Part shown: positions 26,850 through 57,811 of the stretch, piece after piece
How the letters are laid out: every line of letters starts with the position of its first letter
Numbering within the stretch: position 1 is the stretch's first letter
Assembly (NCBI GenBank): GCA_030710605.1
Contig: CP092863.1
Location: 144,857,372-144,921,371 of the forward strand
DNA: 64,000 bases
From: Cordylochernes scorpioides
Lineage: Eukaryota > Arthropoda > Arachnida > Pseudoscorpiones > Chernetidae
Direction of reading: 5' to 3'
Translations under genes and position numbers: made by a program
The notes under the pieces: model-generated
What the model was told of the DNA's origin: nothing
The model's database searches: none
The model's input: only the letters and a program-made list of their open reading frames with translations

Positions 26850-27115
26850 GTTGTTTTCTTCTGGCCCGCACAAACCTTTTGTAAATATGTGAATATTTTT
26901 GGTCGTAGTGGTACAGCCTACTCCACGCTGACGAGCGCCAAAAGCGCGAAACGCGTTCGTGGATGGCTTTTCTTGATTTATCAAGAAATTGGGTTCGCCA
27001 AATATCAGGGAACAGGCTAAATCAATGTTTAGTTGATTTCTGTTCCACCAGATGGCGCTCTGCCTTTTGTAAAGCACATGTGCTCCTGGTCAGGATATAC
27101 CATTTTTATTTTTGA
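26850..27115 (+). mobile_element. Family B element with intact hammerhead
   Basis: Plus orientation: GGTCGTAGTGGTACAGCC, hammerhead, TTTCTTGATTTATCAAGAAA hairpin, GGCTAAATCAATGTTTAG, then the arm GATGGCGCTCTGCC...AGCACATGTGCTCCTGGTC and TTTTTATTTTTGAT. The left arm is missing. Confidence 0.75.
26922..26963 (+). ncRNA. Hammerhead ribozyme, family B (intact core)
   Basis: 42 nt. Stem I TCCACG/CGTGGA is a perfect 6 bp; core CTGACGA; stem II GCGC-CAAAA-GCGC; core GAAA; then CGCGTT with cleavage triplet GTT. The 15.1-16.1 stem (ACGCGT) is self-complementary with no loop, so a dimer is likely needed. All conserved hammerhead positions are present. Confidence 0.85.
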
Positions 27116-27574
27116 TATGTAAATACATATTCAGGTTTTTATTTTATTTTCGTCTTTAAGCCTCAAGTCAGGTGTTTCATTCTCAATTTGTTTTAACATC
27201 TCAATTAAATCAAATAGTGATTTTAAATTGTTCTTATTATAATTTCTACGACTGAAAAACCATTTGGCAAAATGTTCATGTATTCATTCCGAAAAAAAAA
27301 TTAAATACTAATATAAAGCAATAACGCGCCATCTATAAATAGAAAAATGAAAGGATTTAAGCAAAAATGATTCTTTTATACACAAAACAATCTTCTGCTT
27401 TCCTTACTGCGATAATAAAAAACTAATCTCAAAATATTATAACATTCATAGGACTATTGTAAAACGACATTTGAAAATTTACCCGCATGTGTTTCTTTAC
27501 ATTACATAGACAATGTGAAAAAAATAGTAAAAATGTGATATTTTACTGGGATAAGGTGGATAAATTATGAAAAA
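27116..27574. other. AT-rich DNA with a family C scrap
   Basis: 27330-27425 contains GCGCCATCTATAAATAGAAA and CTTTCCTTACTGCGATAA, a partial family C element. Nothing else seen. Confidence 0.4.
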
Positions 27575-27735
27575 AACATCTCCTTATCGTGCAACTGAAA
27601 GTTGCTTGTGCAATCTATCGGAATAAATATCAACTCTTCTCGTTGATTTTTATTTATTTCAGAATTGACCAAATACCCATTCTTAATTAATCAAGAAAAT
27701 CTAACACATATAGTTATAATATAATGCGGCTTATG
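27575..27735 (+). mobile_element. Family A fold-back, one arm plus body
   Basis: Left arm CATCTCCTTATCGTGCAACT, then AATAAATATCAACTCTTCTC, then the body block ACCAAATACCCATTCTTAAT shared with the copy at 30 kb. The hammerhead segment and right arm are missing. Confidence 0.6.
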
Positions 27736-28025
27736 ATTGTAAAACGACATTTGAAATACTATCCCGCATGTGTTTCTTTTCAACGAAAATTCTAAATCTA
27801 TTTCAAGGAGAAATAGATTTTGAATTTTCGTTGAAAAGAAACACATGTGGTATAGTATTTCAAATGTCGTTTTACAATCATAAGCCGCATTATATTATAT
27901 TGTATTATAAATTACTTTATGTACAAAAGGTTAGAAATAATCGTTATTTCTCCTTGAAATAGATTTTAATTTTTCGTTGAAAAGAAACACATGCGGTATA
28001 GTATTTCAAATATCGTTTTTACACA
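27715..28025. repeat. Long near-perfect palindrome (fold-back D)
   Basis: Arms of about 90 bp around a centre near 27806 share TGCGGCTTATGATTGTAAAA, CGACATTTGAAATACTAT and GTGTTTCTTTTCAACGAAAA. A further partial arm follows to 28020. Scraps occur at 45.6 and 60.6 kb. Confidence 0.7.
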
Positions 28026-28033
28026 TATATATA

Positions 28034-28337
28034 TATTTATATAATAAGACTTAATTTGAATATTTAATAAGAGTTTTTATTTATTCAATATTTTGATGGA
28101 CCAATCGTCCATCTTTTACAAGACCTTTTGTTTTGAAAGTCGCGAGCTTCAGGTGAGCCATAGACGTCTTACAAGCAATAAGCTTTTAATACGTCCATGG
28201 CTCACCTGAAACACACGACCTGCTGTGTGCTTCAAAAAAAAAATGAAAACCTCGTAAAAGATGGATGATTTGTCCATCGAAATATTTTAGAAAAATGAAA
28301 AACTCCTATTAAAATTCAAAATAAGTCTTATTATATA
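28034..28337. repeat. Imperfect palindrome of about 300 bp (fold-back E)
   Basis: Arms of about 135 bp share TATATAATAAGACTTA, GATGGACCAATCGTCCATCT (itself hairpin-like) and AGGTGAGCCATAGACGT. Single copy in the window. Confidence 0.65.
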
Positions 28338-28365
28338 AACATATATATTATGAATTGCTCTATAT

Positions 28366-28745
28366 TCAGAAAACATATACTATATAATACGAATTTTGTA
28401 AAATAAACGAGAAATAGAATATAGATAGAATAAATTCTACATAAAATGTGATATCTATTTCTATAAAGAAATGTGAGTCTAATCCGAAAGATATCAATAA
28501 TATTGGAGAAAATCCTGGTAGGGCTTCGATTAAAATATTCAGAAGAATTTGGGGAGCAAGCTTCTGTGATTCCAGGATAAAACGATCGGCAACACTGAGA
28601 GTGTTTCGATAACTAAGGAAAAATTCAGCAACCCTGGGGACCACCTCCCATACATCACCCCGAACTCTATTAAAAGAACCTTATCAGAAATTCCAACATT
28701 TTCCTTAATTTGTTGTGTGTACGATCTCCCAAGTTATGCTTGACC
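28366..28745 (-). other. Coding-like segment, unassigned
   Basis: On the minus strand two overlapping frames are open across about 28540-28730. One gives VVPRVAEFFLSYRNTLS then ILLNILIEALPGF; the other gives YTQQIKENVGISDKVLL. Composition is closer to coding than the flanks, but no domain is recognised and no splice sites are convincing. Confidence 0.25.
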
Positions 28746-28844
28746 TGACAAAATTATTATTTTTTGGTATGTTTTTCTTTTTTGGTTCTTTTTTATATTT
28801 CTGGGTTGGATTGATTGGTGTAGTTTCTTTCTTTTGAGTTGTGT

Positions 28845-29530
28845 AAGAAAGTTGCATAGGTGTCATAAAGATAGATCTGTGTAAATAATTATAACCTCAA
28901 TTGTATATTAGCATTAACTAATAAACCCCAATTTTATGATATAACTATATTACAGTGTCATGAAGATAGAACTTTGTATCAAAGTATAACCTCAATTGAT
29001 ATTAGCATTAACTAATAAACACTAATTGTATGATTTAAATTTATTATAGTGTCATACATGTATTATACATAGGTGTTATAAACATAAGTATTTGTATCAA
29101 ATTATAACCAATAGTATATTAGCATTAACTAATAAACACTAATTTTATTATTTAAATGTATTATAGAGTGTCATACATGTATTATACATAGGTGTTATAA
29201 AGATGGATCTTTGTATCAAATTATAACCTCAATAGTATATTAGCATTAACTAATAAACAACAATTTTATGATTCAAATTTATTATAGTGTCATACATGTA
29301 TTATACATAGGTGTTATAAAGATAGATCTTTGTATCAAATTATAACCTCAATTGTATATTAGCATTAACTAATAAACACTAATTTTATGATTCAAATTTA
29401 TTATAATGTTATACATATATCATACATAGGTGTCATGAAGATAGATCTTTGTATCAATTATAACCTCAATTGTATATTACCATTAACTAATAAACACTAA
29501 TTTTATGATATAACTGTATTATGGTTTTTT
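28845..29530 (+). repeat. Tandem repeat, about 119-bp units
   Basis: Six occurrences of GCATTAACTAATAAAC-type blocks at 28911, 29005, 29122, 29243, 29362 and about 29480 (first unit spacing shorter at 94 bp). Each unit also has TCATACATGTATTATACATA and TCTTTGTATCAAATTATAAC. Confidence 0.8.
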
Positions 29531-29735
29531 GTATTAAAAGAAACTTCGGCCAATAAATATTTTTATTACCTCGACGTTTCGACAAAAAGTCAAGTTTGCA
29601 AGGACTAAACATTCTTCATATTTTATTATCTTTTTGTCGAAACGTCGAGGTAATAAAAAGATTTACTGACCGAAATATCTTTATTTTCAATGAATATGAA
29701 TGCCGGCCAAGCAGCCTCTATCTTTATGTTAACTG
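29531..29735. mobile_element. Penelope-type repeat pair with decayed hammerheads
   Basis: Two copies in inverted orientation share TTGTCGAAACGTCGAGG and AATAAAAA. Both keep the GAAACGTC part of a hammerhead, but CTGANGA is lost in each. The right edge (GAATGCCGGCCAAGCAGCC) matches the edges at 54.7 and 59.1 kb. Confidence 0.6.
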
Positions 29736-29975
29736 TATTATAGATTTTAGTTTTAAGAGACACTTCGGACAGTAAATGTTTTTTTCTCTTGACGTTTTGA
29801 CATAATTATTTTGTTCACGTCAGAAACAAATAAAAGTTAAGGAATTTGTCAATGTGTTATGTTTCTATTATACATTTATAACGTCTTGATAAATGCTTTA
29901 ATTATATTTTAACAAGAAAATATATTGTGAAAAAATAGTACAAAAGTGATATTATACTGGAATAAGGTGCATAAA

Positions 29976-30261
29976 TTAAGAAAAAGGCATCTCCTTATCG
30001 TGTAACTGAAAGTTGCTGATGGCTTGCGCCATCTATCGGAATAAATATCAACTATTCTCGTTGATTTCTAATTATTCCAGAATGAGGGCCAATAGCCCGA
30101 AACGCGTCCGTTGGTTAGCTTTTCTTGATTAAACAAGAATGGGTATTTGGCCAATTCTGGAATAATTAGAAATCAACGAGAATAGTTTATATTTATTCCG
30201 ATAGATGGCGCAAGCCATCAGCAACTTTCAGTTGCACGATAAGGAGATGCCTTTTTCTTAA
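29976..30261. mobile_element. Family A fold-back, full length with degraded hammerhead
   Basis: Arms of about 100 bp (GGCATCTCCTTATCG and its complement) flank a body with a degraded hammerhead at 30078-30108: stem II GGGC-CAATA-GCCC, GAAA, CGCGTC. The first core strand reads CAGAATGA instead of CTGANGA, so this copy should not cleave. The body continues with TTTTCTTGATTAAACAAGAA as in family B. Confidence 0.75.
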
Positions 30262-30554
30262 AGAATATATTATTTTATTAATTGATTATCACGTTTTATG
30301 TTTATATTACCCAGTAAACTTCCCTCTTTGCTTAGAGTTTTTTCAGATATATTTATGTTTAATAGTCATTCAAAATGTCCTCGAATTGCTTCCAAACACA
30401 ATCTAAGTCTTTTAGGAACACTTTGATAAACACGAGCACTTAAATCCGCATCGAGAATAATAAAATATTTTTCTAATGCAATTTTTATTTGCTTTAAAAT
30501 ATTGAGTTTTAGATAGTTTTCGGCTTTATATACCGTAATTATTAATATTTATAA
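30262..30554. other. AT-rich DNA, nothing recognised
   Basis: No gene or named repeat seen. Confidence 0.4.
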
Positions 30555-30900
30555 AAGGATAGATTTATTCGCATTATAAAGTCTAGCGAAGGGGGGAGAA
30601 GTCCGACCACACCTCCCTGCGGTCCCCCCTGGACCCTTGGAATATCGACCAAATTCTGGTTCCTTTCCAAGGTGACTAACGTGGCAACGGCACCTATTTT
30701 CCAATGAAGAGCCCCAAGATAGTGGATATTGCTTCTTCTGTGATGGAGATGTATGGAGACATCTAAGACTCTTCTTTGGACACGACAACAACAACAAGTC
30801 TAGCGAAACCGCTTGAGGGTTCATCAATGATGAGTCAGGCCTTTCCCATAGTTTAACAAAACGGTAAGTCGAGTAGAAACTTGTTTTATTTAAAAAACAA
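30555..30900. mobile_element. Family C element interrupted by a retroposed segment
   Basis: The family C core (GCGAAACCGC, ATGATGAGTC) at 30790-30845 is split by a GC-rich insert at 30591-30795. The 12 bp AAGTCTAGCGAA occur on both sides of the insert, a target-site duplication. The insert ends in a CAACAACAAC tail, as in LINE-type retroposition in plus orientation. Its end encodes a Cys/His stretch (GYCFFCDGDVWRHLRLFF) that could be the C terminus of an unknown LINE. Confidence 0.6.
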
Positions 30901-31171
30901 AACATTTTTCATGTCTCTATAAATTGTTTTCAGAGTTAAACTGTAGCGTTATCAAAATTTACATCAATTTCAGAAACGATTATATACTTATAAAAAAATG
31001 TTATTTTAAATATATAATTATTAAATAAAAACTCGTTTTTTTTATTTCTATAAAGGTTTATTTACGTTACAAAAATATTCTATATAAGTTTCTAACTTCC
31101 AAAATACATTTTTATTGAAGTTAGAAAAGTTTTGTCCACAATTTCCGTGTTTTTTTATTTTTTTATTCTAG

Positions 31172-31289
31172 GACATTTGGCGAGGATTTTGCAGGGTTGC
31201 TAAATTGCCATTTTAACGACACAATTTCCGAGAAGGGTGCCCTGCCAAATGACATGAAAATCATTATTAGTGACAAAACCAACCCTTAA
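31172..31289 (+). CDS. Possible terminal coding exon, unknown protein
   Basis: A strong pyrimidine tract (about 24 nt, mostly T) ends in CTAG at 31170-31171, followed by an open frame of 38 codons to TAA at 31287-31289. It begins TFGEDFAGLLNCHFND and ends KIIISDKTNP. Codon composition stands out from the AT-rich surroundings. No domain is recognised and no upstream exon can be identified, so this is a candidate only. It could be a chance frame in an old repeat. Confidence 0.3.
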
Positions 31290-32160
31290 TTATTAAATTT
31301 CACGCTTGATTACCTAAAGCTTTTGATGTTGTTAATTTTTTTTATTTAAGTTTTCGCGTCGATTTATTGATTTGTTTCCAATTCACTTCATTAGAATGTT
31401 CAATTTGTTCTGTTATGTATCCATTTATAAATTTTTCTCTCTTTTTAATATAAATTCTCTTTCCATTACACTTTTCTAATTTGAAATTGTCAGGTTTTAA
31501 AGTTACTATGGTTGAGTGGTTTTTAACTTGTAATGTTAGTGTGTGTGTAATTGAAGTTTATTGAAATTGATTTTTGGTGAATAGTGTTGCTGATGACAAA
31601 TTGATTTTATGTAACTGGTTTTATCGTTTTAATTCTGAAAAAATATAAATATCGATATTATTGAGTTTTTTTATTTGTGAGTTTTATTAATTAAGGATTA
31701 TAAAAAAAAACATTAGATGAAGGAGTGAAGACTATTTTCTTATCTAAAATAATAATAATAATAAATTGATAAAGAGAAAGCAATCTCTCGAAATATTTTG
31801 AAAGAAAAAATTCTTTACAGATCCAAGTACGCCCTTTTATATACACTAAAAATAACTTTTGTGGGAAATATACTTAAATCAATGTAGTAAAAGGGGCACC
31901 TTTCTTTTTAATTAGAAATTAGAACGATACATTATTTGTAACAATTATTTTTCTATAAATTCAATTGTCATCTATCCATAAAATTTGTCACAAATATATT
32001 TACTGGCAATGTGTTTCTGTCATCTATCAATAATATTTGATGATACAATTGAAAGGAAACACATTGCCAGTAAATAAAATTGTTACAAATTAATATTTCG
32101 GCAATGATTTTAACTTTTTTTATATACAAGTATATCATGAATATTATATTTAAAGACGTT
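31290..32160. other. AT-rich DNA with one small fold-back
   Basis: 31990-32090 is an inverted repeat with ATTTACTGGCAATGTGTTTC and its complement. Nothing else recognised. Confidence 0.45.
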
Positions 32161-32345
32161 AATGTGATGATAAAAGTTATTGAATGAGAGGGCTTGGTCC
32201 ATCAGTAGTGAACCCTCTCAGCAGTTTCACAAATGAAGATTAAATTGGTGAAAACTCTAAGAGTGTTCACCACTGATGAGCAAATCCCTCTCATTCAAAA
32301 TCTTTTAACATTGCAATAAGATCTGTATACTTGATATTTGTGTGT
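32161..32345. mobile_element. Family C elements, head-to-head pair
   Basis: A minus copy (GGTCCATCAGTAGTGAACCC, TTTCAC) and a plus copy (GGTGAAAACT, CACTGATGAGC) meet near 32232, both with outer GAATGAGAGGG-type arms. Confidence 0.65.
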
Positions 32346-32435
32346 GATGATTTATATGAAAAATAAAAACATTGATGAAATCAATTGTTAAAAAATTTAT
32401 AGATTGACGACAAATAAATTAATACATGCAATATA

Positions 32436-33373
32436 CAAGGTGGGATCAATAAATAAGGTGAATTATAATTTATTAAAAAAATAAGAACGATATTAAAATT
32501 TAGGGCTTAATTTATTCAAAATAATCACCTTGGCTTTCTATACATCGTCTCCATCGTTCTGGCAACTTGTAAATACCCTCTTTATAGGCACTCTTAGGAA
32601 GCGTGTGAAAAGATCTTGCACCACTTTCTGGACATCTTCATCCGAGTCAAATCGCTTTCCCTTTAACTCCTTCTTTAGTAGTCCAAAAGGAAATAGTCAG
32701 AGGGGGCTAGGTCTGGACTATATGCAGGATGTTCTAAAACTTCAAAACCTAATTTAATGATTGTAGATACAGTTTTACATGATGTATGCGGCCTTGCATT
32801 ATCATGAAGGAAGAGAACACCCTTACTAAGCTTTCCTCTTCTTTTGTTTCCTATACCGGGCTTTAGCTTATTTACAAGAATGTCACAATAAAGGTCGCTG
32901 TTCATACGTTACCTATGGTAAAAATGGATATTTTTCTATCCTCCAAAATCAAGTTTTCAAAACGCATTTATCGTGCTCTTGGCGTCGCTGTAACACTTGG
33001 TCGTCCAGGTCGCTCAATATCGGTACATGTAATTCGTCCATTTTTTGAACTCGTTAACCTATTTATAAATGTTTTTTGAGACAAACAAGACTCGCCATAG
33101 ATATTTTTGATTCTTTGGCATATTTGAGATGTTTGAATACCTTCTGCATTCAAGAAACGAATAACTGCACGTTGTTCAATGTGGTGCAATCCTTCAAGGG
33201 AGCTTCCATTTTAGTTTATTTATAAGTCTCGCGCCGCGCATGGGAAAAAAAGAACAGAACACCTTAAATAGTCTCTCGATGTTATATTTTAATATTCTGT
33301 GGTTTAAATTATTTTTGCTTTTTTAAATTTTTAATAAATAAGATAATTCACCTTATTTATTGATCCCCCCTTG
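32436..33373 (-). mobile_element. mariner element, internally deleted
   Basis: 938 bp with inverted termini beginning CAAGGTGGGATCAATAAATA, matched at the right end, and TA on both sides (32434-32435 and 33374-33375). Typical mariners are about 1.3 kb, so several hundred bases of transposase are missing. Confidence 0.9.
32675..33215 (-). pseudogene. mariner transposase remnant
   Basis: The N-terminal part (33189 to 32968) reads as the mariner helix-turn-helix domain: EQRAVIRFLNAEGIQTSQIC, then KTFINRLTSSKNGR. The C-terminal part (32905 to 32675) contains the second and third catalytic Asp region: FLHDNARPHT, then HPAYSPDLAPSDYFLL, the DD34D pattern of mariner. The middle, including the first catalytic Asp, is deleted, and the first codons are out of frame with the rest. 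It is therefore a non-autonomous copy that could move only with transposase supplied elsewhere. Confidence 0.85.
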
Positions 33374-33572
33374 TATTATATGTATCACCCTATTAAGAAT
33401 CTTTACTCATGGTAAATATAAATGAGAGCGCCACACACAACACCAGTGTTGACAAATTCAGACAAAAGCCAACAACCAGTATACCATGGTTTCAGGATAT
33501 GGCCCTCATCAGTACAGGGACGGCTTAAATGTTTTTTAAATCAATTTGGTCCGTTCTACGATGCAATGAGGG

Positions 33573-33885
33573 GGTAGGTGGAAAGATGGTCTAAACCGTT
33601 GGTTTTCGACTGCTATGACCCGGGTTCGATTCCCGCAATGGGCACTTTTTTATGATAAAATAAATGCTCCAATGGCTCCCTATTCTTGCAAAAGTCCAAC
33701 CCCACCAGCGAGTGCAAGTAACCAAACGGGGCTCTGGCACATCTTTAAGTGCAAAGTCGAACTGGTTTTCACATGTGTAGACATGTGGTGTACTTAAAAT
33801 AAAAGCAGTCGCCTACTTCTACCCACCATTATTACCATGGCCTGTACCACGTGTACTAAGGATAATAAAAAAAAAGAAGAAGAAT
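33573..33885 (+). mobile_element. tRNA-derived SINE, full length
   Basis: Same layout as at 25.8 kb: GATGGTCTAAACCGTTGG, GGTTCGATTCCC, CACATGTGTAGACATGTGG, GGCCTGTACCACGTGTAC and an A-rich AATAAAAAAAAAG tail. Confidence 0.85.
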
Positions 33886-34289
33886 ATATACATATTGTGG
33901 TCATTTCACGATAACATGAATGGTATTGGGCTATATATCTATATATTTGTTTAAGAATAGGTTGTTTAAAAACCAAAACAAATTCGAAACCCAAATAATT
34001 TTTAATTAAAGATTTATAATTTAGCTTATATACAACACAGTCCAGTTTAGATTTTAACTAAATCTATTTTTAAGCAGTGATTTTTGAAAATAAATATTTA
34101 AAGCATTGTTTCAATCTGTCAACACGGCCAATTCAGACGACACGTGTACTTTTCTCCTTTTCCCAGTAAGCAGGAATTATTTTAGCCTTAATATACAATA
34201 CAAATACCAATTAATTTGTATTTTATCACTCAAATGTAAGTATATATATAAACCTATACCTATTCTTTAACCCGATACTTAAATAATAA
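33886..34289. other. AT-rich DNA, nothing recognised
   Basis: No gene or named repeat seen. Confidence 0.45.
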
Positions 34290-34819
34290 TTCAAATATGC
34301 ACTCATAGACAAACCTTAAGGAAGTTGTACCTTTCAGCATGTATATCGGGATTGAGACAATAACTCTGAAAGATATTACAGTGACCTTTATTGAAGACAC
34401 ACGAGATAACCAAGTGTGTATACACTCATGGACAAAACTTAAGGAAGTTGTACCTTTTAGCATGTATATCGGGATTCAGACAATAACTCTGAAAGATATT
34501 ACAGTGACCTTTATTGAAGACATACGAGATAACCAAGTATGTATACACTCATGGACAAAACTTAAGGAAGTTGTACCTTTTAGCATGTATATCGGGATTC
34601 CGACAATAACTCTGAAAGATATTACAGTGACCTTTATTGAAGACATACGAGATAACCAAGTGTGTATACACTCATAGACAAAACTTAAGGAAGTTGTACC
34701 TTTCAGCATGTATAACGGAATTTAGACAATAACCCTGAAAGATATTACAGTGACTTTCATTGGAGAAACACGAGATAACCAAGTGTATATACACTCATGG
34801 ACAAAACTTAAGGAAGTTG
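34290..34819 (+). repeat. M123 minisatellite, left part
   Basis: Units exactly 123 bp apart (measured from repeated CTCAT positions at 34424, 34547 and 34670). It is broken by the copia element and continues at 38288. Confidence 0.9.
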
Positions 34820-36991: not shown

Positions 36992-37025
<34 letters not shown>

Positions 37026-45720: not shown

Positions 45721-46200
45721 TATTAAAAATAAAGAAGGCATCTCCTGACCACGAGCACATGTGCTTTTTAGATGGCAGAGCGCCATCTAGTAAAAAGCAC
45801 ATGTGCTCGTGGTCAGGAGATGCCTTCTTTATTTTTAATATCAACACCTGACCCACTTATATTTTATTTTTCCTATTGTTTTTTTTTCATGTGTTAAGCG
45901 TCTTTATGAAAATTTGGCCTTAAATACCCATTTCTTGATTTCTCAAGAAGCCATTGGGACCAAACATATTTTTGGTCGCAGTGGTTACAGTCTACTCCAC
46001 GCTGACGAGCGCCAACAGCGCGAAACGCGTTCGTGGATGACTTTTATTGATTTATCAAGAAATTGGGTTGGCCAAATATCACGGAGCAAGCTAAATAAAC
46101 GTTTAGTTTATTTTTGCTCCACTAGATGGCCCTCTGCCATCTAAAAAGCACATGTGCTCGTGGTTAGGAGATGCCTTTTTTATTTTTAAAATATATATAT
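45721..46200. mobile_element. Family B: compact palindrome plus hammerhead unit
   Basis: 45721-45840 is a 120-bp almost perfect palindrome made of two B arms (GAGCACATGTGCTTTTTAGA and complement). A full B unit follows: CACCTGACC, the TTGATTTCTCAAGAA hairpin, the hammerhead, the TTGATTTATCAAGAAA hairpin and a third arm. Confidence 0.85.
45996..46037 (+). ncRNA. Hammerhead ribozyme, family B (intact core)
   Basis: Stem I TCCACG/CGTGGA, CTGACGA, stem II GCGC-CAACA-GCGC, GAAA, CGCGTT. It differs from the 26.9 kb copy only in the stem II loop (CAACA for CAAAA). Confidence 0.85.
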
Positions 46201-47545: not shown

Positions 47546-47664
47546 AAAAGGACATTTTGTTCAGATGTAATTCTACAAGATTTATATATATATATAAACG
47601 TTCAAATATATTCTAAATTAGTTTTAAATATTCTAGATAATTATAATAATTTTTAGCGCTTTGC

Positions 47665-47775
47665 CAACTGTTTTATTTTTTTTTTGCTTCTGACGAGGAC
47701 AAAAGATTTTTGTCGAAACGTCGAGACAATAAAAAGGATTTACTGGCTGAAGTATCTTTAATTTTAGGAATTTAA
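47665..47775 (+). mobile_element. Penelope-type repeat with hammerhead
   Basis: A single plus copy of the repeat seen inverted at 29.6 and 54.8 kb; continues AATAAAAAGGATTTACTGG and GAAGTATCTTTA. Confidence 0.6.
47687..47725 (+). ncRNA. Hammerhead ribozyme, Penelope type
   Basis: CTGACGA (47690-47696), a 7-bp stem II GACAAAA-GAT-TTTTGTC, GAAA, CGTC. Stem I is short (CTT with GAG, one wobble). One extra G lies between CTGACGA and stem II, so activity is uncertain. Confidence 0.6.
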
Positions 47776-48314
47776 ATTTAAAAAAATTCTCTATCTTGTT
47801 ATATGAAAACATTTATTCGCCAATTTTATCTTAAATATGAATATTTATATACCTTTTGCTCTCGCATATTTTTACGTAATTAACAAAATTAAAATAACGT
47901 TTTTAGACTAATTAAACAAAGAATAATTTAAGTTGTTTTTCTTTGGTTCTACCTTAAAATATCACATTATAGGTTGTTGTGTGTTCTGTTAATTATATTC
48001 ATTTATATAATTTACATAAATCTAATTAACTATAAGAAATTTAATTTAGAATATACTATTCCATTTTAATTATATATATGCTAGAGAGAGAGAATATAAT
48101 AGTATTTATTTCAATGGCTATTTATATTAAAATGAACGCATTATCGCGCCACCTGTTGTAAGAAATTTTAACTATTTTGACATGTAGGATTCTTTTGAAA
48201 CAAAGAAATTGTCAACTACTTTTATTGCAATTATTAATTAATAAATGATACAGACGTCCAATTAAATTTTCTATATATATTAAGTCTGTTTTCTCAATTG
48301 TAATTATAATCAAG
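47776..48314. other. AT-rich DNA with a family C scrap
   Basis: 48125-48240 has CGCGCCACCTGTTG and GGATTCTTTTGAAAC, a worn family C arm. Confidence 0.4.
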
Positions 48315-48795: not shown

Positions 48796-49301
48796 TTATT
48801 AATTATAAAGGTTTAGCATAAATTTAGTATAATATTTAAATGATGTATAATTTGCTATATCTGATAAATTGACGTTGATTCACTTTATTTTCAGATTACA
48901 ATCTAGAAAACCAAAAGATCAGTTATTTACTCTACAATTTTACCTTTCCTCTGAAATATACCAAGTTATTGAGGTGTTTATCTAAGAAGCTTTGAGAAAC
49001 TTTATCTGAGTATTATCAACACTCTCCAACTTGATGTCTTATTAAAATAAAAAGGTAATATTAATGCCCTACTTGTGAAATGTTAACGTTGATATATTAG
49101 GTTTTCTTAAATTAAATATAGAAATTTAAGATATGAAGTCTCATGAAACTTTGAAAGATGTTGTATGCGTCTAGCTCTGTAAATAACTTGACAGGTTGCA
49201 TTGTTCTAAAATCATGTACATTTTTATTTGTTCTTTTAATTTATGTAAATATATATTAAAAATAAAGAAGGCATTTCCTTACCACGAGCATATGTGCTTT
49301 T

Positions 49302-49332
<31 letters not shown>

Positions 49333-49334: not shown

Positions 49335-49800
49335 TCACTGGATAACGTTACCAACAACAATTGATGCGATTAAGCCGAGCATCGAAGATCAAACGCCCAC
49401 TATATGCCAAAAGACATGACAAGGTGATCTATCAGCACGACAACGCTCGGCCACATGTTGCAAAGGTTGTCAAGGAGACTTCGAAGGCGCTTCAATGGGA
49501 TGTCCTACCCCACCCGCCGTATTCACCAGACATTGCTCCTTTAGACTACCACATTTTCTATTCGATGACACATGGCCTGGACGAGCAGCACTTTACTTCT
49601 TAAGAAGAGGCGAAAAATTGGGTCGATGTTTGGATCGTCCTCAAAAGACGAGGAAATTTTTTGACGCGGAATCCGTATGCTGCCTGAAAGATGGGAAAAA
49701 GTCGTAGCTAAAGATGGACAATACTTTGAATGAAATATATTGCACTGATTTCTCTGAATAAAGCTTCGAATTTATAAAAATATCCCTCAAACTTATTTGT
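49335..49800 (+). pseudogene. Tc1/mariner transposase C-terminal fragment
   Basis: The translation from 49361 shows VIYQHDNARPHVAKVV, then WDVLPHPPYSPDIAPLDYHI, the second and third catalytic Asp region of a Tc1/mariner transposase. YSMTHGLDEQHFTS follows, then, in a shifted frame, EKLGRCLDRP-type remnants and KMGKS. The N-terminal two thirds, with the DNA-binding domain and first catalytic Asp, are missing. It belongs to a different lineage from the mariner at 32.4 kb, as judged from the PHPPYSPDIAP and HGLDEQHF sequence. An AATAAA lies downstream (about 49760). Confidence 0.8.
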
Positions 49801-50289
49801 ACGCCAATATATAAAAGAAGTGAAATATATAATAAAGTTAGGTCAGCCAGCTAAAACGAGTGAGGCTTCCATCCTTTATTCAAACAGCTTGCTACGTCGT
49901 TCTGGTAACGCGAATGGACAAGATTCTCAGTAGTCAATCCGCAGGTCTTGTCATAAAACACAGTCAAAAACAAGCTTTGCCAGATACCGTCAACACCTAA
50001 GACCAGACAGAAGGCTGAAAGAGCTGAAGGAAGTCCTGGCTAACATTGTTAGGAACCAAGCTCCAAAAGATGTATTACACGACGTTTCATTCATTCTTTA
50101 CAAGGTGGAAAGTATAACACGAGAAGTTTAACTCTTCTGTTTATATATAAATAATGATCGAATTGTAGAGAGGTCGGTAGAGCATTGGTATAACCCGTTG
50201 ATTTGACATTGCCAAGACCAGGGATCGAATACCGCTTTGCACATTTTTTTTTTCTGTAAGGCTATATAACGCCCCTTATATATATAAGA
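49801..50289. other. Unassigned DNA with a tRNA-like scrap
   Basis: 49840-50110 is less AT-rich, but no domain is recognised. 50165-50250 resembles a tRNA-derived head (GGTAGAGCATTGG, GGGATCGAATACC), perhaps a second SINE family. Confidence 0.3.
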
Positions 50290-50595
50290 ATTAAAATCTT
50301 CTAGCACGAATGTTTCGAATAAAACAAATTTCTACTAGAGGGGCTTGGCTCATCAGTGATTAACCCTCACTAAATATTTATTTTATTATTTTATGATGCA
50401 GTAGCGCGCCATCTGTTATGAAAATTTGAAACTATTATAGACGCGTATGATTATTTTTAAAATTAAACAATTTATATCTCCCTTCATGTAATGTCATTCA
50501 TTTTTCCATTGTAGTAAGGACAGTAGAAATTGTTTAATTTTCAAAATAATCATATATTTCTATATTAGTTTTGAATTTTATTATTTCTCTTACTA
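50290..50595. mobile_element. Family C elements
   Basis: A truncated minus copy (GGGGCTTGGCTCATCAGTGA) is followed by a near-palindromic C arm pair centred near 50495 (GTAGCGCGCCATCTGTTATG, AAGGACAGTAGAAATTGTTT). Confidence 0.6.
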
Positions 50596-51059
50596 TAAAT
50601 CTGTATGTGACATATATATTAATATATGAAGTTACAAAAATGTATATGAGTGTTTACCACAACCAGTAACATACTTAATAAAGATAATATTAAACAAACA
50701 CTCTGTCTCTCAATGACCTCATAAAAGTTAATTCATTAAAAATGTCGCTTCCATAATTAGAAATTTCTACAGAAAAATGGCCACGGAGGACTACCCCGCA
50801 TAATCCCTGTCAAATTTTTTTCTACTGCCTCCTCCTCTTGCCAATATTGGAAATTTTAGCTTCCCATTGAGGTAAATTAATATCTTAAAAATTGATCGGG
50901 TTTTAATTAAAATATTATTAGGCCGTTTTCAATTTGTTAATTAATGAACCTATTAAAAATAAACTTCCGATAAAATAAGGTTAGCCAACACTTTGATAAT
51001 TAATAAAGATATTTCTACTTTTTACAATAGATAGGTTTTATAGTGAATAATTAAAAAAT
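50596..51059. other. AT-rich DNA, nothing recognised
   Basis: No gene or named repeat seen. Confidence 0.45.
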
Positions 51060-51690
51060 ACACTCATTTAGACAAAACTTAAGAAAGTTGTACCTTTTAA
51101 GATGTATACCGGGATTCAGACAATAACTATGAAATATATTACAGTGACCTTTATTGAAGGCCAACGAGATAACCAAGTGTGTATACACTCATGGACAAAA
51201 CTTAAGGAAGTGTTACCTTTTAGCATGTATATCGGGATTGAGACAATAACTCTGAAAGATATTACAGTGACCTTTATTGAAGACACACGAGATAACCAAG
51301 TGTGAACAAAACTTAAGGAAGTTGTACCTTTTAGCATGTATATCGGGATTGAGACAATAACTCTGAAAGATATTACAGTGACCTTTATTGAAGACACTCG
51401 AGATAACCATGTGTGTATACACTCATAGACAAATCGTACAATTTAGCATGTATATCAGGATTCAGAAAATAACTCGGAAATATACAAGTATTACAGTGAT
51501 CTTTATTGAAGAAACACGAGATAACCAATATACACTCATGGACAAATTAAAGGAAGTTGTACCTTTTAGCATGTATATCTGGATTCAGACAATAACTCTG
51601 AAAGATATTAAAGTGACCTTTATTGAAGATACACGAGATAACCAAGTGTGAACAAAATTGTCTCTGTCTTCTTGTTTAAGTTTTGTCTAT
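51060..51690 (+). repeat. M123 element, about five units
   Basis: Same unit as at 34.3 kb with some internal deletions. The right end passes into GTCTCTGTCTTCTTGTTTAA and AGTTTTGTCTATGGG, an inverted terminus. Confidence 0.85.
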
Positions 51691-53294
51691 GGGTTTAGAT
51701 CTGTATTTCAAATAGGAGGTATTGAAGTTAGTTATCAATACTCCTGTAAAATTGCATCAAGATCCAAAAGCTCAAGAAACAAAAATAAGAAGATTTCTAC
51801 AGTACACCTATCCCCCTGTATAATTTTAACCAAAGAACATAATTTATATATATAGAGAGATATATTACACACACGGCTATGTATTTCATATAAATACATA
51901 TAATATGCCAATTATATATGCATATCTGAGCATATTAAGTCAAGCTAATAAATGGGGAACTATGTAATTAATTAACAGAACTTAATTGCCAATATGGAGA
52001 GCGTGTAATTTGGCTTGTAATCAATTTGTGATCAAATCAATTTCAGTATGACGCTGTTTGTGAAACATTGTCCACACAACAATAGCCCTTAATGACATTT
52101 CCCCGGGATTTATTGATGGACCCGGGATGCAAATTCAACTCTAACTAATATACATATTTACCCTTATAGGTATTTGGGAAGAAGCTACCAATAAACAAAA
52201 AAATGTAACACAAAGGTAACCTCTCCTTTTAAAAATGCATTTGAATTGTACATTTGGGTTTGTCTGTCCAGTGCATAATTTTAATGTAGTGATGAAGAGT
52301 ATGTAAATACACCTGTTTATGTAAATTAAGACATGAATCCAATTTCATGAGTTCTCTCATAGGATGTTATTAAATCGAAGTTGTCCTTCTACTGATGAAG
52401 GTCATAATCCGAAATGATGGTATGAAGTTTGGCTTTTAGTCTGAATTTCCCAAATGTGATGTTTTGAGACATATTATCACAATCGTTGCATATTACACTA
52501 GCATGATAAATAAAAATATTTATGGAATTCTAAAGGAAAAGTCGTCGAATCATTGCTGCTAATTTGACCTATCAATAACTCAATACCTTTAGGACTAATT
52601 CGTGAAATCAAAACCACTAAGTAAAACCTGGAAACTTAATGCTCTTAATAAAAATTAACCTATGCCTCTTTTTGTACATGAAAAACTTCTTTTCCGCAAC
52701 TAAAAATACTTCCATCAACAAGGAAATATATTGTAAATTATTGTAAAATCTAAAAATAGCTATTTCAAAATAAAGAACGAGCTTAAAAGACTATCAAATT
52801 CATCAGGACAATGTAAGACCTTACACCGCGCAACAGACATTGGCTCAAATTTCCAGAAATAGATGGACTTTGATGTCTCATATACAAATCAAATATATAT
52901 ATATATATATATATGAATAACTGAATAATATAATATAATAATAATCTTTTACAGATGATATTAAATAGAAAACACACCACAGGCTGTGGCTATATTTGAG
53001 AGAAAAATCATTTATTTAGACCTTCTCCTAAACATTATTTTAGACGTTCCGACATCACGCTGTTAACATTTTCAAAAAAGATTATTTGCATAATTCCTAT
53101 TTGGAAACATGTAATGAATGATCTTTCAGCATGTAGAATGTGCACAGGGCCCCGATATATATTTTAAATACAATATCATTTATAACTTAACTTCTATTAA
53201 GTATTATTTAAATAGCTTCCTTTGAAAATGATAACAGTGCATGGTCGAAGTTTCGGTTCATTTAAAAATTAAATTACATATTCATAGTTGATAT
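51691..53294. other. AT-rich DNA, nothing recognised
   Basis: No gene, RNA or shared repeat seen apart from a TA microsatellite near 52890-52912. Confidence 0.5.
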
Positions 53295-53500
53295 TAAAAA
53301 GAAAGCATATCCTGACCACTATCATATGGACAGTTTATAAGACAGACGCCATCTAGTGGAACAGAAATCAATTAACGTTGATTTAACCTGTTCACTGATA
53401 TTTAGCCAACGTTTAGTTGATTTTTGTTCCATTAGATGGCGCTCTTCTATCTAAAAAGCTCATGTGAGCGTGGTCAGAATATGCCTTTTTTATTATAATA
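53295..53500. mobile_element. Family B fold-back lacking the hammerhead
   Basis: Left arm AAGCATATCCTGACCACTA, GAACAGAAATCAATTAACG; right arm GTTTAGTTGATTTTTGTTCC, GAGCGTGGTCAGAATATGCC. The centre with the ribozyme has been lost. Confidence 0.65.
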
Positions 53501-53589
53501 CTAAAACTTTTTTTTGTATTTTTATACATAATTATATTTGAAAAATAGTACAAAAAGTAAATTTTTACTTGGATCAGGTGAATAAATTG

Positions 53590-53725
53590 AGAAAAAGAGC
53601 ATTTCCTAATTGTGTAATTAAAAGTTGCTAATGGTTTGCGCCATCTATGACATTTTCTTCCGATAGATGGTGCAAACAATCAGAAACTTTCAGTTGCACG
53701 ATCAGTAAAAGCTTTTTTTCATATT
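53590..53725. mobile_element. Family A fold-back, short form
   Basis: Arms with TTGCGCCATCTATGACA and TTCCGATAGATGGTGCAAAC around a very short centre. Confidence 0.6.
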
Positions 53726-54334
53726 TATATTTATATATTCTTACAATCTATATATAAAAACATTCACTTCAATAAATTAAAAACGTTTTATCTATTTAAG
53801 TAAATGTAACACAAACGACATTTATATAAAAAAAACACAAGAAATGCCAACATAGAATTCCATTTACAATGAATAATGATTGTAGGCCATCAATTTCCTT
53901 TAATATATCTTGGCTTTAAACGCCATAAAAAGACCATTTTTTGTGTGTGTGATACGTTAAATAATAAAAAAGCGTCCAAATCTAAAGGAATTTCCATTTC
54001 TCCATTCAAGTGTAAATAACTGTCATTTATGAAGGATTAGACTTTATCATAATTGATGGCAAAAATTCTCTTTGTTTACATCCCAGGATGATGTATCTGG
54101 TCTAATTAATTTTATTCTTGCCTAGATAACACTCTGAAATCTGGAACAGATAACTCGGTAACGTATTTTTATATTATTTTCTTTATATTATCTTAATCTT
54201 ATTATATATTAGTTTGAATTCCACGCATATAGAACATTATGTATGTAGCTGTTGAGTTTCAAAACACTCAACGCTCTATTGTTTTCTTAAAATAAAGGAA
54301 AACAAAATTATCTTATAACCACAGAAATTTCAAA
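53726..54334. other. AT-rich DNA, nothing recognised
   Basis: No gene or named repeat seen. Confidence 0.45.
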
Positions 54335-54705
54335 AGTTTTTTTAAACAGAATAAAGGCAGTGGAGGATTCAAGTTGCTTTTGTGGTTTTGAGGAACAAAC
54401 CGCAAGACATCTACTGATCGATTGTCCAGCATTTCAAGATTATAAAATGAACTAGTTGTTTATGAACTTAACGATTTGATTTCCGTAAAATATCATATTT
54501 AAAGTTCAATTCATTTTGTAAATACATTCTAAACTTTCTACAAAATCTGGATCTCTAATGTTTTCATGCGTTGAATAATGTAAATAATATATGTAAATAA
54601 ACTTTTCTCCTTGTTTGGCGCAAGTATCCCTTGCGAGATATAGCGCTTTGGAAATAAAATATTTGTAATTGTAATTGTAATTGTAATTGTAATCTTATAA
54701 CAAAT
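54335..54705 (+). mobile_element. R1-type LINE, 5'-truncated, with TTGTAA tail
   Basis: A C-terminal remnant (SSCFCGFEEQTARHLLIDCP) ending in a stop, then a 3' UTR with the hairpin at 54617-54647 (GGCGC/GCGCT) and a (TTGTAA)n tail, a different tail repeat from the other copies. Confidence 0.75.
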
Positions 54706-54711
54706 ATTTCT

Positions 54712-54970
54712 AACTATAGAGGCTGCCTGGCCGGCATTTATAGTTCTTCAAATAAAAGATACTTCGGCCAGTAAATCTTTTTTATTGTCTCGACGTTTCG
54801 ATAAATTTCTTTTGTCCTCGTCAGGAGGCGAACCAAAATTAAAACTTTTGGCAAAAGGCTGTCTGGTCAAATGTTTTAATTTTTGTTCGCTTCTAACAAG
54901 GACAAAAGATTTTTGTCGAAACGTCGAGATAATAAAAAGATTTTACTGTTCGAAGTGTCTTTTTTTTTAA
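54712..54970. mobile_element. Penelope-type repeat, inverted pair
   Basis: A minus copy (54720-54835) and a plus copy (54870-54965) share GACGTTTCGA/TCGAAACGTC, CTTCGGCCAGTAAATC and GGACAAAAGA. The plus copy has a ruined core (CTAACAA). Confidence 0.65.
54789..54827 (-). ncRNA. Hammerhead ribozyme, Penelope type
   Basis: On the minus strand: CTC, CTGACGA, GG, an imperfect stem II with one mismatch, GAAA, CGTC, GAG. Stem I CTC/GAG is fully paired here, whereas the 47.7 kb copy has a G-U pair at one position. Confidence 0.55.
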
Positions 54971-54984
54971 GAAACATTTCTAAG

Positions 54985-55050
54985 ATAATTAAATTGAAAT
55001 TTTGAAAAGAATTATGAATGCTTGGCTCATCAGTGTGAACCATCTCAGTA
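54985..55050 (-). mobile_element. Family C core, partial
   Basis: GCTTGGCTCATCAGTGTGAA only; arms not recognised. Confidence 0.45.
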
Positions 55051-55076
55051 ATATCAGTACACGCTTGTTCGGCGGT

Positions 55077-55112
<36 letters not shown>

Positions 55113-55335
55113 CACGCAAAATCGTGAAGCGTTCCATATCAGTAATTTCACCATATTAATCCAACACAGATCTACATTAGATTACTTAGAACTAATAATA
55201 ATAATTCATTTATTTTTCAAAAAGGTTACAAGTTTTTCTCTAAAAAGTGTATCGAATGGTCAGTCTATTTACATATTTTTATTTACAACTTCAATAAATG
55301 ACAACAGTAAAAGTAAACAAAGATATTTACATTTG

Positions 55336-55605
55336 TTATCTTGACTCCTGGTCAGTGCTGTGACCCTTGCCGTTATGGTCCCCTGATGTCCTGCAGCTCT
55401 CCAGCAGTCTTTCTATGGTCTCTCCTGGTGGTTCCTCGATAAGATGGTCCCCTGTCCTTGATCCATTCTATTCTGTCAGGTCTCCTGTCATCTGCTCTAG
55501 GTCGTTCTCCTGGATCTCTTCTATGGTCGTCGTATCCCTGTGCTCCATGTCCGGTGTTCCACCTTCCTCGTCATCACATGCCAGCTCCCTACATTGTTCC
55601 AACAA
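55336..55605 (-). pseudogene. Acidic coding-like frame with one stop, unassigned
   Basis: Minus-strand frame of about 90 codons with no ATG at its start and a single in-frame TAG at 55468-55470. Before the stop it reads QCRELACDDEEGGTPDM and IEEIQENDLEQMTGDLTE; after it GDHLIEEPPGETIERLLES and a stop at 55336. The high GC and the Asp/Glu-rich, in-frame character on both sides of the stop suggest former coding sequence. It could be a mutated exon, a retrotransposon tail, or a C terminus plus chance extension. No domain is recognised. Confidence 0.3.
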
Positions 55606-55864
55606 TCAATAATAATAATAATAATAAACTAGAACAGATATAAACAATACAACTATTGTATGTTGCTTCTATAGTATCTGTACTTGAAGTCTTGGTGATG
55701 GTATTTTAACGACACTATGTAAATATGTTTTTATAATTGTAGATATTTTACATATTTCAGCTTCACGTGACCCTGTTCTACTTAACAATTAGAAAGTTAG
55801 GATAAGTTGATAATTGTATAATTCACACCTTCATTAAAAAAAGTAATATTAACAACAAAGTTTT

Positions 55865-55990
55865 TATTTTTTCAAATAAAGCAATCTTCTTACTGCCCTT
55901 CTTACTGTTATGCAAATAAAACCATTGATGAGACAAACCCTCCCAATAAATTTCATAGCAGTGAGAAAAGTATAAACTCTCTTTATTTGA
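55865..55990 (+). mobile_element. Family C element, diverged
   Basis: Contains CTTACTGCCCTTCTTACTG, CCATTGATGAGACAAACCCT and CAGTGAGAAAAGTATAAA. Confidence 0.5.
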
Positions 55991-56459
55991 TTCGACATGT
56001 CAAACATTCATGCTTAAAGGATTTGTACTCTGATATTGAATATAGATAAGAAATCAAGGCTCATAGAAAGTTCCATATTTTCAATCAAGGTAACACCACC
56101 TATTCTAATGAACCTCGATCCTTAAGATAATTATTGGATCGTTTTTGAAGACAACTCTCAGATTTATAAAATTAATTTATTAAACTTTAAACATTTTTAG
56201 ATATAGAGAGAGTTAATTACCTCGTATTTAAGGCAACAAAAGAATCATCTAATTTACATACATCGTTCTAACCAGATTCAACTTGTGTAAAACAGACGAC
56301 AAATCAAAAATAAACAAATTAATAATAGAGGGTAAGTTCTTATTTTTTACAAGCTTTCACACTCAAAGAATATTCAACTTATTGCTTCAATAATCTACTG
56401 AAAATTGTGAGACATAGCGCTACACTGTTGTGACCACTCCCACTACATAGTAGAATTGT
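55991..56459. other. AT-rich DNA, nothing recognised
   Basis: No gene or named repeat seen. Confidence 0.45.
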
Positions 56460-56690
56460 AAAAGAAAGGCATCTCCTTTAATTAAAATTTGCTGATGGCT
56501 TGCGCCATCAATCGGAATATATATAATTATTCCGATAAAATATGGTACATTGTGGAGCACATGTGCTCTTCAGAAGGCAGTGCGCCATTTGTTGGAACAG
56601 AAATCAACTAAACCTTGATTTAGCCTGTTCTCTGATTTTTTTTAATTTCAACACCTGACCTTTTTATCTTTTATTTTTTTCTATCGTTTT
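56460..56690. mobile_element. Chimeric family A / family B fold-back
   Basis: Starts as family A (AAGGCATCTCCTTTAATT, GCTTGCGCCATCAATCGG) and passes near 56545 into a family B arm (GGAGCACATGTGCTCTTCAG, GAACAGAAATCAACTAAACC). It ends with the B outer block (CACCTGACC, TTTTTATCTTTTATTTTTTT). The end lies about 30 bp from the Ig4-like exon and supplies much of its pyrimidine-rich upstream region. Confidence 0.7.
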
Positions 56691-56721
56691 ATCATGGTAC
56701 ATTGTGTTGTTGGATGTACAG

Positions 56722-56985
56722 AGCCGCTATCTGTGGAAGTCAGACCCTCCAAGTTGACGGTAGACGCGGGTTCCACGGCTATATTCAACTGTACGGTGAG
56801 AGGCGGCCCAGCTGCCGTAGAGTGGGCACGGGACCTCACCCCGCTGAGACCCTCGACTCGGATCAGGACAGGACCGTCCTCGCTGGAGATAGGTCCGGTG
56901 GCTCGCTCCGACCGTGGTATGTTCCAGTGCCGGGCTTATGGCGAGAGAGGATCGGCGCAGGATTCTGCCCAGCTTTCTATTGGAG
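56722..56985 (+). CDS. Ig-domain exon, Dscam Ig4-like
   Basis: A single 264-bp exon (88 codons) encodes one immunoglobulin domain between a 3' splice site (GATGTACAG, AG at 56720-56721) and a 5' splice site (TTGGAG then GTAAGT). Both ends are in phase 1. Domain signature: AIFNCTVRGGPAAVEWARDL, then SDRGMFQCRAYGE (Cys-Trp-Cys with DRGxFxC). The opening PLSVEVRPSKLTVDAG and the ending SAQDSAQLSIGG fit the Ig4 domain of arthropod Dscam, which begins PLS... and ends in a LxGG stretch. The assignment is by eye from family knowledge. The exon is very GC-rich compared with its neighbours. It belongs to a cell-surface adhesion/recognition protein of the Dscam type. It lies downstream of the Ig7-like exon on the same strand, the reverse of the order within one Dscam gene. 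Confidence 0.85.
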
Positions 56986-57035
56986 GTAAGTTTTACTTAA
57001 CATTTACATATATAACCTTCTTTATATATATATAT

Positions 57036-57340
57036 ACATATCAAAAATAAAAATGGCATATCCTGACCAGGAGCACATGTGCTTTTCAGAAGGCAGAACG
57101 CCATCTGGTGGAACAAAAATCAACTAAACATTGATTTAGCCTGTTCCCTGATATTTGGCCAACCCAATCTTTTAATAAATCAAGAAAGGCCATCCACGAA
57201 CGCGTTTCGCGCTTTTTGGCGCTCGTCTGCGTGGAGTAGGTTGTACCACTGAGACCAAAAAGATATTTTGGTCCCAGTAGCTTCTTGAAAATCCAAGAAA
57301 TGCGTATTCAAGGCCAAACTTGCGTAAATACGCTTACCAC
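57036..57340 (-). mobile_element. Family B element, minus orientation
   Basis: Starts 50 bp after the Ig4-like exon: ATCAAAAATAAAAATGGC, GACCAGGAGCACATGTGC, GGAACAAAAATCAACTAAAC, TTTGGCCAACCC, then a hammerhead in reverse and the GACCAAAA blocks. It adjoins the next copy head to head. Confidence 0.8.
57193..57235 (-). ncRNA. Hammerhead ribozyme, family B, one core mutation
   Basis: Minus strand: TCCACG, CAGACGA (U4 changed to A), GCGC-CAAAAA-GCGC, GAAA, CGCGTT, CGTGGA. The U4 change in the catalytic core should strongly impair cleavage. Confidence 0.8.
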
Positions 57341-57811
57341 ATGAAAATAAACGAAAGAAAAATAAAGATAAAAAGATCAGGTGTTTAAATCAAAAATAAA
57401 AATGCATATCCTGACCAGGAGCACATGTGCATTACAGAAGGCAGAACGCTATCTCGTGGAACAGAAATCAACTGAACATTGATTTAGCCTGTTCCCTGAT
57501 GTTTCTTGGTTTTTCAAGAAGCTACTGGGACCACAAAACACCTTTTTGGTCGCAGCAGTACAGCCTACTCCACGCTGACGAGCGCCAAAAGCGCGAAACG
57601 CGTTCGTGGATGGCTTTTCTTGATTTATCAAGAAATTGGGTTGGCCAAATATCAGGGAACAGGCTGAAATTATGTTTAGTTGATTTCTGTTCCACCAGGT
57701 GGCGTTCTGCCTTCTGAAAAGCACATGTGCTTCTGGTCGGGATATGCCATTTTTATTTTTGATTTCTACACCTGATATTTTTATCTTTTATTTTTTCTTT
57801 CGTTTTTTTCA
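57341..57811 (+). mobile_element. Family B element, full length, with intact hammerhead
   Basis: About 470 bp. Left arm from ATGAAAATAAACG through ATCAAAAATAAAAATGC to GATTTAGCCTGTTCCC, centre with the hammerhead, right arm back through GGGAACAGGC and TTTTTATTTTTGAT to CGTTTTTTTCAT. The arms are about 160-180 bp, so the element is mostly palindrome with the ribozyme near the middle. Confidence 0.85.
57569..57610 (+). ncRNA. Hammerhead ribozyme, family B (intact core)
   Basis: TCCACG, CTGACGA, GCGC-CAAAA-GCGC, GAAA, CGCGTT, CGTGGA: identical over 42 nt to the copy at 26922-26963. Confidence 0.85.

Follow-up and report, generated by a model that had tools for sequence, protein, structure and literature searches.

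What is the short repeat that carries a hammerhead ribozyme motif in the pseudoscorpion Cordylochernes scorpioides, and which enzyme moves it? A 64,000-nucleotide stretch of contig CP092863.1 (its full length is referred to here as the window) contains several copies of this repeat, for which a preliminary description had proposed three intact hammerheads and a fourth with one core change. Based on its sequence and base-pairing pattern, the motif is probably a type I hammerhead. We hold with moderate confidence that the repeat belongs with the animal non-long terminal repeat (non-LTR) retrozymes, as a non-autonomous retroelement moved via a Penelope-type reverse transcriptase (RT). Hammerheads in short animal repeats are already known, and we do not claim that a Penelope-like layout of such repeats is unreported; what is of interest is this layout together with a dimer-type hammerhead in an arachnid. 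The enzyme that moves animal retrozymes is an open question in the papers cited here, to which the layout of inserts brings a further kind of evidence, one that could be counted genome-wide.

The hammerhead motif and its conservation

The plus-strand copies c1 (26922..26963), c2 (45996..46037) and c3 (57569..57610) are present exactly as first described, each being recognised by sequence, by pattern, by the Rfam model Hammerhead_HH9 (RF02275) and by a covariance model of our own. A 36-base hammerhead pattern with a free 5-base loop matches these three in the window with up to 3 mismatches permitted, while 0 of 100 dinucleotide shuffles match. In c1, TCCACG (26922-26927) forms stem I with CGTGGA (26958-26963). 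Between these strands lie the core CTGACGA (26928-26934), stem II with its loop as GCGC-CAAAA-GCGC (paired positions 26935-26938 and 26944-26947), GAAA (26948-26951), the CGCG loop (26952-26955) and the triplet GTT (26955-26957), with cleavage predicted between 26957 and 26958. The perfect 6-bp stem I, 4-bp stem II and full core are found in all three copies; loop II reads CAACA in c2. The fourth copy, c4 (57193..57235, minus strand), does have the one core change ascribed to it, an A in place of T at core position 4 (CAGACGA for CTGACGA). It is damaged beyond that description, with loop II longer by one A and two pairs of outer stem I broken. It is the only one of the four in which the conserved core CUGANGA...GAAA is not intact.

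Two poorer copies extend this set. The decayed c5 (57896..57941, plus strand) has GTAA for GAAA and lacks the 3' strand of stem I, its resemblance to the repeat unit ending at the predicted cleavage site. A sister family, U2, retains a hammerhead 3' half (U2c, 30085..30123, plus strand) with stem II as GGGC/GCCC and the triplet GTC. The NUH cleavage triplet is GUU in c1-c4 and GUC in c5 and U2c.

A TAC/T internal loop separates stem I from a 4-bp extension (AGCC/GGCT). Both this internal loop (UAC/U in the RNA) and the A-rich loop II align to HH9, and are candidate regions for a contact between loops 1 and 2. Stem III is minimal: in GAAA-CGCG-TT a single A-U pair stands beneath the palindromic CGCG loop, and is kept in 5 of 5 distinct rows. 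The term 'intact' thus describes the core, the first two stems and the GUU triplet, but not stem III, which the preliminary description left unmentioned. According to a review by the group that described animal retrozymes (PMC7761336), most invertebrate type I hammerheads can form a stable helix III, unlike that of the present repeat. A one-pair helix III with a palindromic tetraloop is described for the axolotl HHR_Amex1 and newt satellite DNA hammerheads, to which we liken the motif by that description, the host being an arthropod rather than an amphibian; HHR_Amex1 cleaves itself poorly as a monomer and much better in dimeric constructs (PMC7229834). By analogy, a single copy may cleave poorly because of its minimal stem III. 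The motif would place an amphibian-like, dimer-type hammerhead in an arachnid; our limited literature collection yielded no paper joining hammerhead ribozymes and chelicerates.

HH9 is the best-scoring hammerhead family in Rfam for these copies, with 30.4 bits for c1 and c3, 26.3 for c2 and 26.1 for c4, all below its gathering score of 52. The corresponding E-values for the window are 0.0014 to 0.032 over the four copies, and 5.9e-6 if the search is restricted to 281 bases around c1. Stem order, the UAC internal loop and the A-rich loop II are shared with the model, whereas stem III counts 3 pairs in HH9 and one here. Our own covariance model was built from six pieces of the window and recovers these by construction; a further, weak match lies at 33464-33528 on the minus strand (17.6 bits, E 0.007), followed by 11 weaker rows. 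Against Rfam, U2c gives 8 matches up to E 10, none of them a hammerhead.

The proposal that the ribozyme is conserved within otherwise worn elements, in excess of the rest of the repeat, holds in part. Over the four copies c1-c4 (226 columns), 3 of 43 hammerhead columns vary compared to 44 of 183 elsewhere (one-sided Fisher 0.0075, with columns treated as independent). The hammerhead is the most conserved segment of its length, the minimum being reached by 7 of 184 segments, all of which overlap it. In pairwise form, the three comparisons without c4 show the excess (Fisher 0.005 to 0.025, uncorrected), but the three with c4 do not (0.10 to 0.38).

Compensatory changes are found at 2 of 15 hammerhead pairs: a C-G pair of outer stem I (stem Ib) is U-A in c2, and a stem II pair is altered on both sides in c5 and U2c. 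At least as many such pairs arise in 116 of 500 shuffles, and a covariation score at least as high in 13 of 500. For the whole unit, 6 of 65 pairs are changed on both sides, compared to a shuffled mean of 2.2 (equalled by 1 of 500) and 0 to 3 in slid controls; this analysis used four sequences and a structure assembled from the c4 fold, RNAalifold hairpins and the hammerhead. The compensatory changes fit selection on RNA structure and, for so few copies, support it without proving it.

The repeat unit and its insertions

Two full units are present, of 345 nt (57040-57384, minus strand, containing c4) and 344 nt (45844-46187, plus strand, containing c2), with one type I hammerhead per unit. The GC content of four pieces, two of them partial, is 0.39-0.45, that of the window 0.31. 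As RNA, both full units fold better than their shuffles (z-scores of -5.1 and -8.0), with 0 of 100 shuffles equally stable in each case. The longest stop-to-stop frames mostly inside the unit have 101 aa (c2) and 73 aa (c4), too short for RT plus endonuclease, and the unit RNA is probably non-coding. The 101-aa frame (45839-46144, plus strand) spans the c2 unit and its hammerhead, while the comparable c4 frame ends earlier, at 69 aa; it is probably due to chance. A tRNA-type short interspersed nuclear element with an RNA polymerase III promoter was considered and rejected: no B box was found, the best B-like match having 3 mismatches. The unit does contain an A-like box with 1 mismatch, of a kind common in the window (159 and 184 matches on both strands for two spacings).

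The main family comprises seven insertions in the window, I1 to I7. I1 (24055..24116, plus strand) and I4 (49255..49301, minus strand) are 3'-end fragments of the unit. I2 (26888..27117, plus strand) is a 5'-truncated unit containing c1, with no inverted arm found, and lies between 8-bp direct repeats, TGTAAATA, at 26880-26887 and 27118-27125 (p ~0.057 from 300 random pairs). I3 (45722..46190, plus strand) has 3' ends facing outward on both sides and consists of an inverted 3' end (45722-45791), a direct partial 3' end (~45793-45839) and the full c2 unit. I5 (53293..53498) carries no hammerhead and is made up of two 3' ends head to head. In the composite I7 (57040..57941), a minus-strand part with the full c4 unit and a partial 3' end (57389-57504) meets a plus-strand part with the c3 unit (57502-57763) and a diverged 5' part (57768-57941) containing c5. 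This last piece matches the c4 unit at 68% and may be an older, separate copy.

I6 (56555..56693) also lacks a hammerhead, and has an inverted arm (unit 229-315) facing the unit start (1-45). It is bounded by a 13-bp target duplication, ATGGTACATTGTG, at 56542-56554 and 56694-56706; 0 of 300 random pairs had one as long. I6 is located just upstream of an immunoglobulin (Ig) domain exon (I-set; stretch 56555-56986) whose best PDB matches are titin, DSCAM and DCC; part of the exon's pyrimidine-rich tract seems to derive from the insertion.

Head-to-head arms thus occur in four of the seven insertions (I3, I5, I6 and I7) and a clear partial tandem in two (I3 and I7); a short T-rich stretch ahead of the unit start in I6 may be a third. 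Internally, the arms stop at various positions of the unit (~85, 222, 229 twice, 252 and 276). Of 11 3'-facing outer ends, 8 stop at one site, in the run TTTTTATTTTTGAT or a variant, the three exceptions being both ends of I6 and the right end of I7 (c5, at the predicted cleavage site). Fixed terminal inverted repeats are absent, given the variable inner ends, the armless c1 copy and the different ends of I6. When units are joined in tandem or as a circle, the common 3' end falls in the A/T-rich loop of a junction stem-loop in the RNA, between GGTCAGG and CCTGAYC or variants of these; four such unit junctions, one of them artificially joined, fold at -7.5 to -13.0 kcal/mol. In c1-c4 the DNA is continuous across the predicted cleavage site, and therefore the RNA that was copied had been left uncut there or was re-joined. 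The flanks of the insertions look AT-rich, as does the window as a whole.

Proposed mobilisation by a Penelope-type enzyme and its alternatives

The repeat resembles the animal non-LTR retrozymes of Cervera and de la Pena (2020, PMC7229834), which have units of 170-400 nt, low GC, strongly self-paired RNA and a type I hammerhead. It agrees with these in hammerhead type, size, GC and self-pairing, and in the presence of a putative Penelope-type element in the genome. In terms of the criteria for retrozymes, the repeat has a 150-450 bp unit with one type I hammerhead, GC below 50% and stable self-paired RNA. Target duplications, when present, are expected to exceed 4 bp; the candidates here are 13 bp at I6, an insertion without hammerhead, and 8 bp at I2, non-significant after 19 tests. 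The arrangement differs from that of published retrozymes, which form tandem arrays from dimers to large multimers (PMC7229834), whereas the present repeat occurs solo, in partial tandem or head to head.

It is this arrangement that makes a Penelope link suggestive. Published work names both long interspersed nuclear elements (LINEs) and Penelope-like elements (PLEs) as possible retrozyme helpers (PMC7229834), PLEs being strong or likely candidates in view of the type I hammerheads, tandem occurrence and co-existence common to both (PMC7229834, PMC7761336). PLE inserts consist of a pseudo-LTR (pLTR) with an adjacent inverted partial pLTR and partial tandems, head to head being the commonest inverted arrangement, and published examples show target duplications 8-10 bp long (PMC3846280). 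The inverted partial copy, partial tandem and one short target duplication of the hammerhead-unit inserts are alike (PMC3846280, PMC11167929), while the unit differs in lacking an RT or endonuclease ORF (open reading frame). A further difference lies in the hammerheads of PLEs, which are minimal variants without helix III or loop contacts (PMC7761336). The pLTRs were all that a host gene needed to be integrated in trans (PMC3846280), and the purified anole PLE protein nicks and extends both strands, its RT starting inside its RNA (PMC11167929).

The window itself contains a GIY-YIG-coding element fragment (8334..9751) that faces an inverted copy of itself in a head-to-head arrangement, with 3' ends outward, so that the head-to-head layout is common to the hammerhead insertions and this element. 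Its ORF (9004-9444, plus strand) matches Pfam GIY-YIG at E 0.00037 and 21.2 bits, below the cutoff of 22.6, and its sole match is a C. scorpioides protein (64% over 73%). Near both outward ends, at 8421 (minus strand) and 9665 (plus strand), lies a CTGAGGAAGTTTGGCGAGTTGCCACRCGAAA motif that resembles a degenerate hammerhead.

In the life cycle that we propose, transcription of a tandem source locus outside the window would yield multimers. Their hammerheads would dimerise via the ACGCGU palindrome of the stem III strands and, in this paired state, cleave behind GUU. An RtcB-type ligase, an enzyme that circularised other retrozymes in vitro (PMC7229834), would join the ends into a circle, or some multimers may remain uncut. 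A Penelope-type RT with GIY-YIG endonuclease would then start internally in the GGTCAGG/CCTGAYC junction loop, which would suit such initiation by its position at the common 3' end, and nicks on both strands of AT-rich target DNA would lead to head-to-head, partly tandem inserts. For the anole protein in vitro, unprocessed RNA was regarded as the main substrate (PMC11167929), and an unprocessed template is a simpler reading than circles. In the fully specified scheme the element is a parasite of Penelope type: its hammerhead would yield RNA circles or multimers, and the PLE RT would copy these from an internal start in the junction stem-loop at both nicked strands. We entertain this scheme tentatively and think it doubtful as a whole. 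If true, it would identify the machinery behind the movement of animal retrozymes and account for the head-to-head position of the present inserts.

Several observations weigh against the Penelope-moved retrozyme. At gathering thresholds Rfam finds no hammerhead family in the window, only one tRNA and one U6; the refuting outcome proposed earlier, absence of a covariance-model hit, thus applies in a strict sense alone, as HH9 matches four of four copies below this level. The gathering score is a family cutoff and not a definition of a ribozyme. The isolated 42-mer favours another fold (-15.7 kcal/mol, compared to -12.5 for hammerhead stems I and II), and RNAalifold on four copies places a different hairpin over the hammerhead, which goes unrecovered. 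In 64-mers of c1-c3, stems I and II do form by energy folding, but core bases also pair. Energy-folding programs do not model the tertiary contacts of hammerheads, and it is the sequence pattern and covariation, rather than such folds, that argue for the hammerhead.

The boundaries supply further points on the same side. Target duplications were sought in 19 boundary sets, covering six of the seven main insertions (I1 left out, I7 used twice), six of U2, five of a CTGACGAGG family and one of the GIY-YIG element; some boundaries are rough, and those of the CTGACGAGG family probably too short. A clear duplication was found only at I6, whose outer ends (unit ~315 and ~45) differ from the common 3' end. 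The I2 repeat is at the level expected by chance from 19 tests, at I3 and I4 the matching flanks consist of AT microsatellite, and no duplication was found for I5 and I7. Likewise no significant duplication was seen in the U2, CTGACGAGG-family or GIY-YIG sets (p ~0.11 for the last). The inverted layout is itself common: of 31 inverted-repeat rows in the window, 12 belong to the hammerhead, U2, CTGACGAGG and GIY-YIG families and 19 to none of these, one of the 19 (4502-4761) matching the GIY-YIG element weakly. Because of this, the layout is not specific for PLEs here.

No main-family insertion begins at the predicted cleavage site; c5 ends there and a U2 piece, U2b, starts ~4 nt past it, and by our estimate one such coincidence among ~14 boundaries is not surprising. 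Intact hammerheads never follow one another in direct tandem here, the sole direct pair being c3 with the broken c5, and therefore no locus in the window could release a monomer. A shared circular template is not supported by I7, the pieces of which are no more alike than pieces from different insertions (c4-c3 0.932, c4-c1 0.957). On the enzyme side, our assignment of the GIY-YIG ORF to a Penelope-like element rather than another GIY-YIG element is in part an assumption. The PLE study also describes no cross-mobilisation between PLE families of one genome, from which co-adapted enzyme and cis sequences were inferred (PMC3846280). The single target duplication, the missed consensus fold and this lack of cross-mobilisation reduce our confidence both in the general Penelope reading and in the specific parasite scheme.

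The competing explanations fall, in descending order of probability, into three that we regard as unlikely and one that is very improbable. A LINE-type RT rather than a PLE might move the retrozyme, the head-to-head arms arising by twin priming or nested insertions. Twin priming inverts the 5' part, whereas the outer ends of both I3 and I5 are 3' ends, and the GIY-YIG element has the identical layout. For a LINE speak an RVT_1 ORF of LINE appearance in the window (2139-3515), the naming of LINEs beside PLEs (PMC7229834) and, as regards nesting, the far greater divergence of c5 than of c3 within I7. Hardly different in its low probability is a fossil hammerhead, functional in an ancestor but now inactive and passively copied. 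The core base lost in one of four copies, the incomplete c5 and U2c, the minimal stem III and templates of c1-c4 that were uncut or re-joined at the site would all suit such decay, yet the excess conservation and the compensated pairs of stems II and Ib, albeit in few copies, speak against it.

A fold-back DNA transposon of the miniature inverted-repeat transposable element (MITE) type is the least likely of these three; it would contain the hammerhead, with the arms as terminal inverted repeats moved by transposase cut-and-paste. Inverted arms in four of seven insertions and the many further palindromic repeats of the window fit this, and with one clear target duplication a variable duplication length cannot be claimed. 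It is the combination of variable inner arm ends, the armless c1 copy and the partial unit tandems in I3 and I7 that disfavours a plain MITE, to which the covarying RNA structure may be added. That the motif is a chance or convergent short sequence without ribozyme meaning is very improbable: the lack of a gathering-level Rfam match and the other hairpin in consensus folding are outweighed by the absence of matches in 100 shuffles, the full core in three copies, sub-threshold HH9 scores in all four and the covariation. The retrozyme moved by a Penelope-type RT thus remains the reading we favour.

Related motifs elsewhere and other features of the window

No relatives of the motif were found in viral contigs with stem I fixed, in prokaryote genome contigs or in phage records. 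A looser pattern gave one match in viral contigs, at L001:11527-11556 (minus strand) of IMG/VR; this hammerhead-like motif is apparently unrelated and scores 24.6 bits with RAGATH-1 and 20.9 with Hammerhead_3, both below gathering.

The sister family U2 occurs at 5252-5382, 27577-27705, 29987-30250, 53599-53712, 56469-56532 and 61507-61616. It lies head to head in three of these six places, and the half hammerhead is kept in one, inside the head-to-head insert 29987-30250. A further repeat family is located at 29524-29697, 29729-29848, 47641-47780, 54736-55000 and 59028-59116, head to head in three of the five places, and a CTGACGAGGACAAAAG...GTCGAAACGTCGAG motif resembling the minimal hammerheads of PLEs is present in the more complete copies. 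Candidate hammerheads in repeats at 47690, ~54890 and 54824 were rejected as motif only, no Rfam hammerhead being found in the two places tested. Palindromic repeats at 6843-7182, 19482-19692 and 58040-58323 contain CTGATGAGCC (or CTGATGAACC) without a proper stem II, and 27715-27899 is a 185-bp palindrome that is 94% self-complementary.

The U6 match corresponds to a U6 small nuclear RNA-like sequence at 55057-55143 (plus strand, 45.8 bits) with an internal deletion of 23 model positions, and is probably a pseudogene. The window also encodes a Ty3-type polyprotein, the named matches of which are led by spiders and C. scorpioides (120 of 143 listed); among the matches listed, a C. scorpioides protein shows 96% identity across 48% of the query.

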